Shown: positions 576 through 11,752, counted from the stretch's first letter. The stretch is DNA of 33,235 nucleotides from a virus (IMGVR_UViG_3300017917_001567:1-33235), one strand, 5' to 3'. Program-made: numbers and translations. Notes: generated by a model not told the origin, from the letters alone.

Positions 576-1133
576 ATGAATTTCCAAATATATTTTCCAG
601 GAATAGTTGGATATAAAAATATTTTTCCAGATTCATATAGTGAGTTATTAAGATTAGAAAATAAAATAAATTGGACTGCTATGTTAACTGGATCTGAAAA
701 TGATACACCAGAACTTCAATATGAAAATAGAAGGGGTCTTAATTCATCACTAGCATCTTTGATACATGACAAAAATTTTTTTGATTTTAGAGATAAAATT
801 AATAATGAATCTAGTAAATGTTTATTTGATTATTCACAAAAATATGGCTATTGGCAACTAGAGCAAGAGGGGTGGGTATTATTAAAATATGAGGTTGATG
901 ATTTTTTTAATTTACATACAGACTCTTCAAGAAGATATCAAAGACAGGTTTCTTCTGTATATTATTTAAATGATAATTATAGCGGTGGAGAGTTAGAATT
1001 CTCATATATAGATTTAAAGATTAAACCAAAATCAGGAGAATTGCTTATTTTTCCATCTACAAATTTATTTTCTCATAAGGCACACAAAGTAGTACAAGGC
1101 ACGAAGTACTCTATGGCTAACTGGTATAATTAA
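576..1133 (+). CDS. 2-oxoglutarate/Fe(II) dioxygenase, prolyl 4-hydroxylase-like (1)
   Basis: The 185-residue protein ends in a double-stranded beta-helix of the P4Hc type. Iron ligands His114-Thr-Asp116 (HxD) and distal His167 are present, and Lys177 sits exactly 10 residues after the distal His, where the family binds the C5 carboxylate of 2-oxoglutarate. A SGGEL segment (136-140) and a GELLIFP strand (154-160) are family hallmarks. The expected reaction is hydroxylation of a protein side chain, often proline, coupled to 2-oxoglutarate decarboxylation; the substrate is unknown. The gene starts 2 nt after the Hint gene stop, so it is probably co-transcribed with it. A second enzyme of the same fold follows and a GT60-like glycosyltransferase lies 0.9 kb downstream. 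Phages often carry such enzymes; a free-amino-acid or DNA substrate cannot be excluded. Confidence 0.82.
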   Translation: MNFQIYFPGIVGYKNIFPDSYSELLRLENKINWTAMLTGSENDTPELQYENRRGLNSSLASLIHDKNFFDFRDKINNESSKCLFDYSQKYGYWQLEQEGWVLLKYEVDDFFNLHTDSSRRYQRQVSSVYYLNDNYSGGELEFSYIDLKIKPKSGELLIFPSTNLFSHKAHKVVQGTKYSMANWYN

Positions 1134-1138
1134 ATATT

Positions 1139-1735
1139 ATGAATAAAAAAGAACTAGCAGATAAGATTGTTGTGTATAGTGATTTTTTTGATAACCCCAT
1201 GATTTTTATGGAAGAGGCAAAAAATATATTCAATAAATTCCCTAAATTAAATTTTAAGCCAGCAACTATAAATAATCATGAATACAATACAGAACTTCGT
1301 TCTTGTACAGTGTTTTCATTAAACTCACAGGCACCTAATCATGATAATATTTTTGGAGAGGGTTCAAAAAAGGCAAAGCAATATTTAAATAAATTGATAG
1401 ATAGAAAAACTTTTTCTTGTATAAATGATTATATGAAATCATATAATTTTTCTGTAAAATACAGAGAGCCATGGGAACTTTTAACATACGAACAAACACA
1501 AAAATTAACCTGGCATTCTGATCATGGAGATGTACATCCATGCCAAGTTTCTTTCGTTTATTATTTTAATGATAACTATACTGGTGGAGAAGTAGAGTTT
1601 AAAGATCACATAGGTGCGCCATATAAGCCAAATGCTGGAGATCTTTTAATATTCCCATCATCTCCTGATTATGTTCATAGAGTTCTGCCAATAGAGTCAG
1701 GTGTAAAATATAATGCTATTTCGTTTGCTAAGTAG
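1139..1735 (+). CDS. 2-oxoglutarate/Fe(II) dioxygenase, prolyl 4-hydroxylase-like (2)
   Basis: This 198-residue protein shares the fold of the preceding gene: HxD at His126-Ser-Asp128, a YYFNDNYTGGEVEF strand (141-154), GDLLIFP (167-173), distal His180 and Lys190 ten residues later. It is only distantly similar to its neighbour outside the catalytic core, so the pair is either an old duplication or two acquisitions with different substrates. It begins 5 nt after the first oxygenase stop, without a convincing Shine-Dalgarno, so translation is probably coupled. The region after its stop holds the next promoter. Role inferred: side-chain hydroxylation of a phage or host protein, possibly feeding the glycosyltransferase at 1995. 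Confidence 0.82.
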   Translation: MNKKELADKIVVYSDFFDNPMIFMEEAKNIFNKFPKLNFKPATINNHEYNTELRSCTVFSLNSQAPNHDNIFGEGSKKAKQYLNKLIDRKTFSCINDYMKSYNFSVKYREPWELLTYEQTQKLTWHSDHGDVHPCQVSFVYYFNDNYTGGEVEFKDHIGAPYKPNAGDLLIFPSSPDYVHRVLPIESGVKYNAISFAK

Positions 1736-1743
1736 GCAGGGTG

Positions 1744-1749
1744 TATAAT
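1744..1749 (+). promoter_or_regulatory. -10 box of a leaderless promoter for the zinc-ribbon gene
   Basis: TATAAT is followed by exactly six bases (AAAAAC) and then ATG at 1756, so the first transcribed base should be the A of the start codon. TG directly precedes the hexamer. No clear -35 is seen. The in-frame GTG at 1741 lies upstream of the box and could not be on this transcript. Confidence 0.65.
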
Positions 1750-1755
1750 AAAAAC

Positions 1756-1995
1756 ATGAAGCATATTGATAAAATAAAAGAAATAATTGAAAATAATAAA
1801 AAGTCTGGCGTTACTCCAATGAGTATGCTAAATCCTGAAAATTACATAGATAGTCAAACAGCAGATAATAGGTTTTCGATATGTCAACAATGTCCAGAAT
1901 TTATAAGTGCTACAACACAGTGCAAAAAGTGTGGCTGTATTATGAAAGCAAAAACAAAATTAACTAAAGCATTCTGTCCAATTGGTAAATGGTAA
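1756..1995 (+). CDS. Small zinc-ribbon-like Cys-rich protein
   Basis: This is a 79-residue protein with a helical basic N-terminus and a Cys cluster: CxxC near residue 45, then a CxxCGC block about 12 residues later, and a final Cys in a CPIGKW C-terminus. The spacing suggests one zinc-binding ribbon. Similar small proteins with a CPxGKW ending occur, from memory, in environmental and cyanobacterial phages without known function. The start is set at ATG 1756 because of the TATAAT box six bases upstream. The stop overlaps the start of the glycosyltransferase by one base (TAATG), so the two are translationally coupled and may act together. The function is not known. Confidence 0.7.
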   Translation: MKHIDKIKEIIENNKKSGVTPMSMLNPENYIDSQTADNRFSICQQCPEFISATTQCKKCGCIMKAKTKLTKAFCPIGKW

Positions 1996-2924
1996 TGGAT
2001 AAAATATTTGTAAGTTTGGCAGCATATAGAGATCCAGACCTAATCAATACTGTAAAAAGTTTTTATTTTAATGCCAAACATAAAGAAAGATTATTTTTTT
2101 CGCTGGTATCACATGAAGAAATAAATAATGAATTTGATTTTAGTTTTTTGCCCAAGGAGCAAATATCATATCAAAAAATAGATTATAGACTAGCAGACGG
2201 AGCCTGCTCTGGAAGACATTTAGCAAATTCATTGATGTCAGATAAATATAAATATTTTTTACATACGGACTCTCACTCAAGAGCAAAACAAGATTGGGAT
2301 GAAATGTTGATTAATGAACATACTAAATGTTCTATTAAGTGGGGTGAAGATTTTATATTTTCTAAGTACCCTCACGGATTTAAAATATTATGGAACGACT
2401 GTGACGAGGGTACTGATGAAATTAATTATGAAAATGAATCCTTACATAAAGTAGTTCCAGTATGGGATGAAACTGAATGGATGTATTTATTAAGATGGAA
2501 AGATTTAGAGGATAAAGAGTATGGGGATAAGGTTTATGGTTTTGCAGCAAACTTCGCTTTTGGTCCAACAAAATGTTTAATGAAAGCGCCATATGATCCA
2601 TATTTATATTTCTTAGGCGAAGAAATAAGTTTAGGCATAAGGCTATATATGCAAGGAGTTACAATTGTTGCCCCTGCAATTAATGCAATCTGGACAAACT
2701 ATGATAGAGATAATGGAAGACGGGGTGGCTTTCATTGGACAGACAATTCAATGTGGGGATTAAGAGATAAGGCTGCAAGAATTAGATTAAATAAATTGTT
2801 TAGGGGCGAAGATCTTGGAGTTTATGGTTTACAAGATCACATGGAAAAATATAGAGAGTTACAAAAAGAGATGGGGCTTGACTTTGAATCAAAAGATTGT
2901 GTCAAGCCCATCTACAAAGATTAA
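1995..2924 (+). CDS. GT60-like GlcNAc transferase (Skp1 GlcNAc-transferase family)
   Basis: This is a 309-residue cytosolic glycosyltransferase. The N-terminal IFVSLAAYRDP block (4-14), the GACSGRHLAN segment (69-78) and the FLHTDSHSR block around residues 88-96, carrying the metal/nucleotide-sugar acidic residue Asp92, match the GlcNAc family (PF11397, GT60). The FLGEEISLGIRLYMQG segment near 206-221 is the second hallmark. In Dictyostelium this family adds GlcNAc to hydroxyproline of Skp1 after a prolyl 4-hydroxylase acts; here two P4H-like genes lie just upstream. Start: ATG 1995 overlaps the previous stop (TAATG); ATG 1989, also in frame, is the alternative. The end overlaps the convergent lysin gene by 4 bp (shared TTAA). 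Donor sugar and acceptor are inferred only from the family. Confidence 0.78.
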   Translation: MDKIFVSLAAYRDPDLINTVKSFYFNAKHKERLFFSLVSHEEINNEFDFSFLPKEQISYQKIDYRLADGACSGRHLANSLMSDKYKYFLHTDSHSRAKQDWDEMLINEHTKCSIKWGEDFIFSKYPHGFKILWNDCDEGTDEINYENESLHKVVPVWDETEWMYLLRWKDLEDKEYGDKVYGFAANFAFGPTKCLMKAPYDPYLYFLGEEISLGIRLYMQGVTIVAPAINAIWTNYDRDNGRRGGFHWTDNSMWGLRDKAARIRLNKLFRGEDLGVYGLQDHMEKYRELQKEMGLDFESKDCVKPIYKD

Positions 2925-3484
2925 TGAGGAAATTCCAACATTAATTGCTTAGTTCTTGGAGTAATGCCTTTCCAGGCTCTCCAGTCTTGTCCACCGTTGG
3001 ACATATGAAAAGCAATTTTTGCATTCACAACTGGATTAAATAAATCTACATTATGTTGTAGATTGAACTTATCACGACGATCAGGACCAAGCATTCCAAG
3101 CATATTTATTTGAAAGATACCATATGAACTGTCTCCAGTTGAGGTATTTCCATTAAATGCAAAGGGTCGACCATTACTTTCTTTTTTAGCAATAGCCCAT
3201 GCCTCCTTAAGATTTTGACCTTCAAATCCTACTAATTTTAATAGATTTTTCAGATCTTTGTCAGATAGAGATGTAGCATTAGAATATTTTTCTAACTGAT
3301 CTTCTTTAGCCCTAGAAACACTTTTGGCCACTTCCGTGGCCTCCATAGTCTCTTCAAGCACGATAGGTCTACTATCGTTTAATCGGTTTTCAGAAGCATT
3401 AGCAACATTTGAATAAACTCCAAACATAGCCAATATGCTGAGTGTACCAATGATATTCCTATTATTATTCATAAAGTTAATCAT
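2921..3484 (-). CDS. Secreted lysozyme/lytic transglycosylase-like protein
   Basis: This 187-residue protein is the only gene on the minus strand. Residues 1-30 form a signal peptide (hydrophobic core IIGTLSILAMFG, cleavage plausible after ANA). A polar linker precedes a goose-type/SLT lysozyme fold: catalytic Glu102 in AKKESNGRP, then SSYGIFQIN (119-127) and a C-terminal NAKIAF and WRAW block typical of the family. It should cleave peptidoglycan between MurNAc and GlcNAc after export. The start is ATG 3484, five bases after a perfect AAGGAGG (minus strand of 3490-3496); the longer in-frame start at 3511 would lie upstream of that site. It could be the lysin, or a modified-host or virion hydrolase. 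No holin is visible nearby. Confidence 0.8.
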   Translation of the reverse strand: MINFMNNNRNIIGTLSILAMFGVYSNVANASENRLNDSRPIVLEETMEATEVAKSVSRAKEDQLEKYSNATSLSDKDLKNLLKLVGFEGQNLKEAWAIAKKESNGRPFAFNGNTSTGDSSYGIFQINMLGMLGPDRRDKFNLQHNVDLFNPVVNAKIAFHMSNGGQDWRAWKGITPRTKQLMLEFPH

Positions 3485-3505
3485 AGTTTCCTCCTTAGAA
3501 ACAAA

Positions 3506-3527
3506 TGACACCTTTTTAGGGGTGCCA
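3506..3527 (-). promoter_or_regulatory. 5' leader hairpin of the lysin mRNA
   Basis: On the minus strand TGGCACC and GGTGTCA form a 7-bp stem (one G-U pair) around an 8-nt loop. It lies within a few bases of the predicted transcript start (about 3532) and upstream of the AAGGAGG. A 5' stabilising or regulatory hairpin is possible; no ligand class is recognised. Confidence 0.4.
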
Positions 3528-9452: not shown

Positions 9453-10970
9453 ATGTCAAAGCAAGCAGGTAGAATGAGCCAGGGAGCAAATGACTTCCTT
9501 ACACCATATGCACCAACAATTGGGACAGCAACAGATGTTGGAACTAACCGTCCATATAATAATGGTGCAGCAACAGTAACATTTACTCCGACTGGACCTA
9601 ATGCAGCGACATCGTATACAGTTACATCTTATCCAGGAGGCTTTACTGCAACAGGCACATCATCTCCAATAACGGTTACAGGTCTTCAGTCTAACACTTC
9701 ATATACCTTTAAGGTTAAAGGAACAAATGCAGCAGGAACTGGAGAGGAGTCAGATGCGTCTAACTCTATAACTGCTACAACTGTTCCAGATGCTCCTACT
9801 GGAGTTTCTGCAACAGATGTTGGAACTAATCGTCCGTATGACAATGCAGCAGCAACTGTTTCATTTACTGCTGGAGCAACTGGAGGAAAAGCAATAAGTT
9901 CTTATAATGTAATTCCAGATTCTGGATCATCGGCATCAGGATCAAGTTCTCCTATAACTTTAGGTGGTTTCCCTTCAGCACAAGTACGTACATTTACAGT
10001 AACTGCAACAAATTCTAATGGTACTTCTGCTGCATCTTCAGCATCTTCAGGAGTAATGTTAACAACAGTTCCAGCAACACCAAGTGCTCCTTCAGCATCA
10101 ACAATTGCAAATCAAGCACAAGATTCTGTATCTTGGTCTGCCCCTGCTAATGGTGGTAAAGCAATTACCAACTATTATTGGACATCATCAGATGGTAAGA
10201 GTGGAAATACTGGATCTACATCTGTTACAGTTAATCAAGAGGCTGGAACACAGCAAACATATAATGTTAGAGCAGATAACGCCAATGGAGTTTCTGGAAC
10301 ATCTGCAAATTCTGGCCAAGTTACAACCTTTACCTTTACACCATTTGGCTTTGCACCATTTGGATTTACACCTTTTGGCGCCTTCGGTGCATTCGGTGCG
10401 TTCTCAGCCTTCGGTGCGTTCGGTGCCTTCGGTGCCTTCGGTGCCTTCGGTGCGTTCGGATTCGGTCCTTTCGGTCACCATGCTCACTCTTTGGGAGAAT
10501 CAACTAGAGTTTTAACTCCAGGTGCTCCAGGATCATCAAAGCCTGCTAGAGAGTTGCAAGTTGGAGACACATTATTAGGTCTAAACATTCCAAATCCAGC
10601 AAATGTTAACTGGACAGAATGGCAGATAGATTCTTCAGAATTATCTTTAGATTCTAGTAATGTTGTAGAGACTACAATTGTTTCTCTTAATACTTTTCCT
10701 GAAGATGAATTTATTTATGTAGATGGAGATCTATTTTCTAAGTCTCACTACATTTTAGTTCAGAAGGATGGAACAACCAAATTTATTCCAGCAACAGAAA
10801 TTGATACATCTTATAAGATATTTTCTGCTGAATCAAAATCTTTTATTGATGTAGTTTTGGTAGACGTAATCAATATGCCACTAAATAAGATATCAATTAA
10901 CTGTGAGCCATATGATAACTTCTTTACAGAAACAATGCTAGTGTTTGATACACAAGATCCAGTACAGTAG
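9453..10970 (+). CDS. Three FN3 domains, FGA repeat and Hint-like domain
   Basis: This is a 505-residue protein. Three fibronectin III-like beta-domains occupy about residues 18-290 (SYTVTSYPGGFTATG, then a linker of TVPDAPTGVSATDVGTNRPY, and a third starting at about 206). A Phe-Gly-rich stretch (TPFGF repeats, then Phe-Gly-Ala units) covers about 293-340. The rest is a Hint-like domain: Ser346 stands where Cys stands in the protein at window start, Thr is again five residues on, and His432 keeps the TxxH position (as SxxH). The terminal His-Asn is replaced by Phe-Asp (FFTETMLVFD). Thus the N-terminal acyl-shift chemistry is possible, but Asn-mediated C-terminal cleavage is not expected. SD AAAGGAG at 9439-9445 supports the start. 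Likely a virion tip or adhesin protein (inference). Confidence 0.78.
   Translation: MSKQAGRMSQGANDFLTPYAPTIGTATDVGTNRPYNNGAATVTFTPTGPNAATSYTVTSYPGGFTATGTSSPITVTGLQSNTSYTFKVKGTNAAGTGEESDASNSITATTVPDAPTGVSATDVGTNRPYDNAAATVSFTAGATGGKAISSYNVIPDSGSSASGSSSPITLGGFPSAQVRTFTVTATNSNGTSAASSASSGVMLTTVPATPSAPSASTIANQAQDSVSWSAPANGGKAITNYYWTSSDGKSGNTGSTSVTVNQEAGTQQTYNVRADNANGVSGTSANSGQVTTFTFTPFGFAPFGFTPFGAFGAFGAFSAFGAFGAFGAFGAFGAFGFGPFGHHAHSLGESTRVLTPGAPGSSKPARELQVGDTLLGLNIPNPANVNWTEWQIDSSELSLDSSNVVETTIVSLNTFPEDEFIYVDGDLFSKSHYILVQKDGTTKFIPATEIDTSYKIFSAESKSFIDVVLVDVINMPLNKISINCEPYDNFFTETMLVFDTQDPVQ
10374..10454 (+). repeat. 9-bp tandem repeat coding Phe-Gly-Ala, nine units
   Basis: Nine in-frame units of about TTCGGTGCN occupy 81 bp, one unit (TTCTCAGCC) changed to Phe-Ser-Ala. 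The unit is clearly richer in G and C than the surrounding gene. The array ends eleven codons before the Hint-like Ser346 codon (10488-10490). A glycine every third residue is compatible with a polyglycine-II or collagen-like rod (speculative). Confidence 0.9.
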
Positions 10971-11005: not shown

Positions 11006-11752
11006 GTGAAAGAGAAAAATTCTGCAAAAATATCATTTGTATCAACAATGCCAAAAAATATAGATTTATTTCCTGAGCCTGTGCCAGCATTTAAAGAAAT
11101 ACCATCATGGTTTAAAAAAATATTACCATTTTATGAAAATGATGATACTCCAATTGATGGTGTACAAAGATTAACTGTTAAAAGATGTGTTGCATTTTTA
11201 GACATGTTATCAAGCGGGTATATAATTAAAGCACCATTTGACATATATATTGACACTACGGAAGGCAAACAAATTTTTCAAATTCCAAAATCTATGGAAA
11301 GATTTTCTAGTTTTGGCACAAAACCTATGATTGGTAGTCATGATATTAAACAGGTAGAAGGCTATCCAATAGATAAAGATAAATATATAGAGCATATATT
11401 TAGAATAAATCCAATTTGGATAGCAAAGGGTAGCAAAGGTGTAAGTGCAATTTTTATGCAGCCACAACACCATGAAGTGTCACCACTATATGCAATTTCT
11501 GCAGTAATAGATATTGATGGGTATCCATCTGATGGATTACTCTCATTTTTAGTCAAAAAAGACTTTAAAGGATATGTACAAAGAGGTACTCCATTAGTAC
11601 AGGTAATACCATTTATTAGACAGAATTTTGTTTCTGAAATTATAAGAGATCAAAAAGAAACTGACAACATTGAAACAATAAAAGCAAAAGTAAGATCTGT
11701 TTTTAATTCTGGCTACAAAAAAATGATGTGGAAGAAAAAAAGTTATACCTAA
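11006..11752 (+). CDS. Conserved phage protein of unknown function
   Basis: This is a 248-residue protein with GTG start. Visible features: an EPVPAFKEIPSWFKKILP segment (residues 23-40), a TVKRCVAFLDMLSSGYII segment (about 57-74) and a beta-rich middle with PIWIAKGSKGVSAIF and DGYPSDGLLSF. The Trp-Phe-Lys and Lys-Arg-Cys-x-x-Phe-x-Asp-x-x-x-x-Gly-Tyr pattern recalls a conserved family of phage and marine/aquatic bacterial proteins (tentatively DUF6065-like; from memory, unverified). No signal peptide or membrane span is present. It is not obviously structural and stands as a single-gene unit between the Hint protein and the reductase gene. The C-terminus is Lys-rich. Confidence 0.6.
   Translation: MKEKNSAKISFVSTMPKNIDLFPEPVPAFKEIPSWFKKILPFYENDDTPIDGVQRLTVKRCVAFLDMLSSGYIIKAPFDIYIDTTEGKQIFQIPKSMERFSSFGTKPMIGSHDIKQVEGYPIDKDKYIEHIFRINPIWIAKGSKGVSAIFMQPQHHEVSPLYAISAVIDIDGYPSDGLLSFLVKKDFKGYVQRGTPLVQVIPFIRQNFVSEIIRDQKETDNIETIKAKVRSVFNSGYKKMMWKKKSYT

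Follow-up and report, generated by a model that had tools for sequence, protein, structure and literature searches.

Which proteins do the prolyl-hydroxylase-fold 2OG oxygenases of phages modify? Such enzymes abound in aquatic phages, and no consensus exists on what they do. One survey describes what viruses do with prolyl 4-hydroxylase as something that "remains cryptic" (PMC9301287), and the Phold paper (PMC12774648) describes many EGLN3-like oxygenases in phages, with the PHROG 61 2OG oxygenases of marine phages noted as such. In the literature searched, exclusive of subscription papers and preprints, no paper connected adhesin repeats with GT60 or with 2OG oxygenases of phages. We address the question with a record of an uncultured phage, 33,235 bases long (hereafter the window, meaning the whole stretch of DNA analysed), in which two oxygenases, a zinc-ribbon protein and a GT60-type glycosyltransferase follow the gene of a truncated tail adhesin (Table 1). 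We estimate a probability of roughly 0.68 that this cassette hydroxylates and/or glycosylates the phage's own virion adhesin. The adhesin as substrate, the residue modified, the sugar added and the purpose are all matters that we infer from genes, motifs, folds, gene order and the statistics relating oxygenase subfamilies to repeats.

Cassette genes and their enzymes

Table 1 Features of the window, with coordinates counted from its first base
Feature	Coordinates	Strand	Remarks
Virus record IMGVR_UViG_3300017917_001567, IMG/VR	1-33235		Window length 33,235 bases
Truncated tail adhesin, C-terminal 190 codons	1-573	+	Cut by contig start; proposed substrate
2OG-1, 2OG-Fe(II) oxygenase	576-1133	+	PF13640, E 4e-17, 63.5 bits
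2OG-2, 2OG-Fe(II) oxygenase, subfamily O1	1139-1735	+	PF13640, E 7e-13, 49.9 bits
Zinc-ribbon protein	1741-1995 (GTG 1741; probable start ATG 1756)	+	DUF6171-like, phrog_13558 6e-15
GT60-type glycosyltransferase	1989-2924	+	PF11397, 126 bits vs curated cut-off 21
Lytic transglycosylase-like gene	2921-3511	-	Directly after GT60 on the opposite strand; kept in many relatives
Second repeat adhesin	9453-10970		Fibronectin III domain, (FGA)n tract, Hint-like C-terminus
phrog_7084 gene	11006-11752		Follows the (FGA)n adhesin; family also found (as DUF6065) in FFP-repeat cassettes, e.g. L482

The one-strand array of two adjacent oxygenases, zinc ribbon and GT60 described in the sequence-only reading is present, with Pfam matches and intact motifs. 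Neighbouring genes lie 2-5 bp apart or share 7 bp. The close relatives L003 and L004 have the same gene order, the latter with a third oxygenase inserted between zinc ribbon and GT60. The GT60 genes of the window and L003 are separated mostly by synonymous change (83 vs 24 base differences), and the differences of 2OG-2 from its relatives are likewise mostly synonymous; together with the conserved order, this points to selected genes rather than chance reading frames. The window portal shares ~46% identity with the portal protein of large Streptomyces phages, which makes an actinobacterial host plausible.

Both oxygenases retain the iron triad and the lysine for 2OG (H114-x-D116...H167...K177 in 2OG-1 and H126-x-D128...H180...K190 in 2OG-2). 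Compared with solved structures, the oxygenase profile matched the prolyl 4-hydroxylase 3itq first (E 1e-10), which we take to be the Bacillus enzyme, followed by PKHD-type hydroxylases and human EGLN1. The Pfam match of the GT60 enzyme spans residues 54-288 plus an N-terminal stretch. Its motifs D94-S-H96, W103-D104, D203-P and G210-E-E are intact; DSH, WD and DP...GEE are invariant across nine divergent members, and DSH, WD and GEE across 19. The AlphaFold model (mean pLDDT 92.4) has polypeptide GalNAc-transferases as its best solved folds (TM-scores ~0.5), a fold-level match of a predicted structure that fits a protein acceptor without proving it. At the level of profile and fold, the expectation of protein-modifying enzyme types was supported for oxygenases and transferase alike. 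A GT60 profile match to MdbA in the PDB (E 5e-4) was taken as chance.

Detection of GT60 depended on search settings. A tblastn search of cultured phages gave no match at an E limit of 1e-3, whereas the same query at a limit of 10 returned matches with E 2e-11, a disagreement for which we read negative BLAST results with care. A single-protein scan of genome contigs found nothing, and an alignment-based scan found matches. Among bacterial GT60 genes, L009:5995-7218 on an Azospirillum plasmid adjoins contractile-injection-system-like genes (tail sheath, DUF4255), and L007:6001-6942 has the gene of a large calcium-binding protein as its neighbour, with type I secretion genes close by.

The zinc ribbon (CxxC...CxxCGC...CPxGKW) contains six cysteines and ends in CPxGKW; comparison with L003 favours the later of its two start codons as the probable one. 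Among 80 loci retrieved by the zinc ribbon, 53 contained a 2OG oxygenase and 32 a GT60 gene, and the nearest long upstream gene was Pro-rich in 44/64, compared with 7/415 other long genes. The zinc ribbon is a regular cassette part and serves as a marker of cassettes located behind tail adhesins whose repeats are of low complexity. Among cultured cyanophages, it follows tail-fibre genes in S-CBS2, S-SRM01 and S-SCSM2R; in S-SSM7 and Sf-FS3, two oxygenases and sugar genes come after it. The examined stretches of the cultured cyanophages that have both zinc ribbon and 2OG oxygenase (S-SSM7, Sf-FS3, S-T4) contained no gene rich in Pro or Thr, a genuine restriction on how general the pattern is. 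In L466 and L472, genes of 262-263 aa upstream of the zinc ribbon start with FLHIPKT, as in sulfotransferases.

Adhesin repeats and oxygenase subfamilies

The visible repeat of the window adhesin, TIATIATIDTIATIATINTINTINTIDT, is a (TIA/TID/TIN)n tract with threonine at every third position. Behind it comes a Hint (intein-like) domain, in which C31, TxxH 113-116 and His182-Asn183 are intact; the Pfam matches of this domain (Intein_splicing, Hom_end_hint, Hint_2) all fall below cut-off. The visible repeat contains no proline, and the visible part of this truncated adhesin, whose upstream repeats are unseen, has no long Pro-rich tract; no near relatives reaching upstream of window base 1 were found. 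In the longer homologues L420 and L491, TP or VTP repeats precede the TIx tract and the Hint domain, so that one adhesin carries two repeat types; L491 additionally has the two matching oxygenase subfamilies.

Where the upstream gene is visible, members of the 2OG-2 subfamily (O1) occur only beside TIx-Hint adhesins. The nearest relatives of 2OG-1 (L003, L492, L499) all also encode 2OG-2 and have a TIx adhesin upstream wherever that gene is visible. TIx adhesins that lack Pro-rich tracts (L492, L493, L497) are still accompanied by relatives of 2OG-1 and 2OG-2, so the TIx tract is the likely target of 2OG-2 and probably that of 2OG-1 as well. Candidates for the hydroxylated residue are Asn, Asp, Thr and Ile. 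Possible acceptors for GT60 are the regularly spaced threonines of the repeat, a hydroxylated residue, or a tract further upstream that the contig does not show. Gene position and the matching of repeats with oxygenases make the Hint-domain adhesin, already suggested from the sequence alone, the best candidate substrate. The (FGA)n adhesin and its phrog_7084 neighbour (Table 1) are possibly a second modification module.

Upstream adhesins in the relatives carry (TP)n, (VTP)n, (PVA)n, PFFPFF, poly-Thr or (TIN/TID/TIA)n repeats. With oxygenase subfamilies grouped at 42% identity, and with repeat classes and the Pro cut-off set after inspection of the first loci, TIx adhesins were followed by O1 in 13/13 cases (vs 0/65 others), FFP-only adhesins went with O2 in 9/10 (vs 0/68 others), and TP/VTP adhesins with O0 or the related family D in 33/44 (vs 4/34). 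All three matches hold after clustering of the adhesins at 60%, although many loci share one phage backbone and clustering reduces this lineage dependence without removing it. A tree-based independent-pairs test had 4 usable pairs, too few to decide, and many contigs are fragments.

The matching was predicted in writing before two further DNA scans, seeded with TI[ND] and FFP repeats. For all repeat seeds, redundant genes were removed and 3.5 kb downstream searched. FFP seeds yielded an oxygenase in 61/81 cases, 54 of them O2 (10 clusters at 60% identity) and none O1. TIx (TIN/TID) seeds yielded O1 in 12/14 and O2 in none; this exhaustive scan brought up mainly contigs that a search by Hint domain had already given and therefore carries small independent weight, adding completeness more than independence. 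TP seeds yielded an oxygenase in 11/74, mostly O0 or D and never O1 or O2, leaving 63/74 TP-repeat viral genes without an oxygenase within 3.5 kb. Control seeds with TG repeats yielded none (0/58). Tentatively, and at slightly less than even odds, these data suggest a modular repeat-enzyme code in aquatic phages, in which TIx, FFP, TP/VTP and poly-Thr repeats would each have an oxygenase subfamily or GT60 of their own; some of these oxygenases would then hydroxylate residues other than proline in Thr-Ile-Asn/Asp repeats.

Other families also occupy the cassette slot. Family D (190 residues, PHROG 2954) is labelled ferrochelatase and has an HxD...H pattern; its model (pLDDT 93.4) matched AlkB, PHD2 and a bacterial P4H best among solved structures. 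Motif and predicted fold indicate another 2OG-oxygenase fold, and the name "ferrochelatase" (PHROG 2954, 3531; cyanophage records; L018:5456-6004 and relatives) looks wrong. At other loci, the place is taken by an O-fucosyltransferase-like gene (PF10250, below cut-off), by a GDP-mannose-dehydratase-like epimerase, or by cupins or radical SAM proteins. The first two form alternative cassettes at GT60's position (L454:7370-8407, L448:8404-9426), possibly a fucosylating version.

Linkage of GT60 with oxygenases and competing readings

Using an alignment of phage and bacterial GT60s, 80 viral loci (at least 80 exist) and 80 bacterial loci were gathered; with at least 80 viral loci, GT60 is common in viruses. 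A 2OG oxygenase lies nearby in 16/80 of the viral loci listed and in 15/80 of the bacterial ones, and a PF13640 search of the same viral records found the domain in 19/80 listed. Fusions of a PF13640 oxygenase with GT60 occur in bacterial proteins (L126, L148, L112). The proteins with PF13640 and one or many GT60 domains (L112, L119, L126, L148, L152) reach ~2000 residues, and that of L148 additionally contains a tubulin-tyrosine-ligase-like domain. On a quick GT60 tree of the loci listed, the linkage needs ~16 changes among phages and 8 among bacteria (12 and 6, respectively, forced by supported branches) and is thus not a single inherited accident. The proposed association of GT60 with P4H-like genes therefore recurs in phages and bacteria, with fusions in the latter, and the absence of such linkage that the sequence-only reading had named as refuting was not observed. 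Many relatives have the oxygenase without GT60 or GT60 without the oxygenase. The 80 viral GT60 loci listed showed no association of 2OG genes with TP repeats (p 0.70); the 2OG-TP signal appears with loci seeded by zinc ribbon or repeats, not with those seeded by viral GT60.

GT60 without an oxygenase goes with adhesins that have poly-Thr runs (9/11 vs 9/87) and rarely Pro-rich tracts (2/11 vs 61/87), and both tendencies remain after clustering on the zinc ribbon (p ~0.001 and 0.0002). The poly-Thr association raises the possibility, a serious one that we nevertheless hold to be short of probable, that the two activities are independent: as a sub-case of the cassette reading, GT60 would be a mucin-type Thr O-glycosyltransferase acting on the adhesin, and the oxygenases would harden or alter the repeats separately. 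The polypeptide GalNAc-T-like model and the regularly spaced threonines of the window repeat agree with such a division of labour, whereas the adjacency and fusion of 2OG and GT60 genes in several lineages suggest a shared substrate or sequential action.

The sequence-only reading had pointed to the Skp1 pathway, which strictly applied would have the oxygenases convert adhesin proline to hydroxyproline and GT60 add GlcNAc to it. One part of this comparison stood, namely the linked or fused P4H-like and GT60 genes. The order of proline first and GlcNAc second found no support: the closest solved relatives of the oxygenases are P4Hs, yet the visible adjacent repeat in the window has no proline, so that the strict reading is not supported for the window, and the 2OG-2 subfamily accompanies TIx repeats that are mostly Pro-free. 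GT60 does lie beside 2OG genes with TP-rich adhesins in L015, L022, L036 and L211, and the TP repeats upstream of TIx in L420 belong to a relative of the window adhesin. Nevertheless, Pro-free TIx adhesins keep their 2OG-1 and 2OG-2 relatives, many hydroxylase cassettes lack GT60, and GT60 accompanies poly-Thr adhesins where no oxygenase is present; we regard a strictly Skp1-like sequence as unlikely here.

Cassette content varies widely, single phages have up to 11 scattered 2OG genes, and the phage lineages are non-independent, as would be expected if a variable island behind the last tail gene gathered unrelated cargo and the repeats were ordinary linkers. Such passive linkage appears improbable given that subfamily follows repeat class in the repeat-seeded scans, that the TG control is empty and that the tests hold after clustering. 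Cellular proteins can be substrates of prolyl hydroxylases in bacteria, and the enzymes might accordingly be directed at a protein or surface glycan of the host, but this quite improbable takeover would not explain why the enzymes match the kind of repeat in the adhesin next to them. Phages glycosylate DNA in other systems, and the GT60 gene of Xanthomonas phage XacN1 adjoins a carbamoyl transferase near a family 9 glycosyltransferase; hypermodification of phage DNA by TET/JBP-type oxygenases and a sugar transferase is nonetheless very improbable, since Pfam assigns the oxygenases to PF13640 and its relatives PF13661/PF13759 with no TET/JBP-type domain among the matches, the GT60 fold is polypeptide-transferase-like and the genes sit with tail adhesins rather than replication genes.

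Proposed mechanism and relation to known systems

We favour modification of the phage's own adhesin: the match of oxygenase kind to repeat kind in related contigs suggests that these phages probably hydroxylate, and often glycosylate, their adhesins. The tail adhesin would carry long simple repeats, with the enzymes encoded directly behind it. During infection, 2OG-1 and 2OG-2 would hydroxylate the (TIA/TID/TIN)n tract in front of the Hint domain, and GT60 would transfer a sugar, by family probably GlcNAc, onto threonine or a hydroxylated adhesin residue. The zinc ribbon, a constant companion, is perhaps an adaptor; the parts of scaffold or acceptor suggested for it from the sequence alone are putative. 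The modification may serve to stiffen or shield the fibre or to change adsorption.

To our knowledge, the P4H of chlorella virus PBCV-1 is accompanied neither by GT60 or a zinc ribbon nor by paralogues matched to repeats. The Skp1 pathway of Dictyostelium and Toxoplasma, with prolyl hydroxylation followed by GT60 (Gnt1) glycosylation (PMC3515798, PMC11570480), resembles the window in pairing a P4H-like 2OG oxygenase with a PF11397/GT60 enzyme, presumably on one protein. The phage genes differ in their candidate substrate, a simple-repeat virion adhesin whose visible repeat lacks proline, and no Skp1 appeared among the family matches of the tested window genes. As in plant extensins and other hydroxyproline-rich glycoproteins (PMC4769139), long TP, VTP and PVA repeats in the relatives' adhesins stand beside hydroxylase and sugar-transferase genes; unlike extensins, they belong to bacterial viruses with different transferases and with further repeat classes (TIx, FFP) that have their own oxygenases. 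PBCV-1, which infects algae, likewise encodes an enzyme of P4H fold thought to act on viral proteins (cited in PMC9301287). Virion proteins are also glycosylated in mycobacteriophages (Freeman 2023, cited in PMC12619734), there on capsid and tail tube and by other enzymes, with no oxygenase. The PHROG 61 oxygenases share fold and family with those studied here; the passages on them in PMC12774648 assign no substrate, and here the repeats of the neighbouring adhesin are proposed.

For a group of enzymes so widespread in aquatic phages, gene neighbourhoods thus suggest a concrete substrate that can be put to the test, namely the repeats of the tail adhesin encoded alongside. If true, the cassette would be a phage counterpart of the hydroxylated, O-glycosylated repeat proteins of eukaryotes and a source of enzymes for modifying simple repeats.
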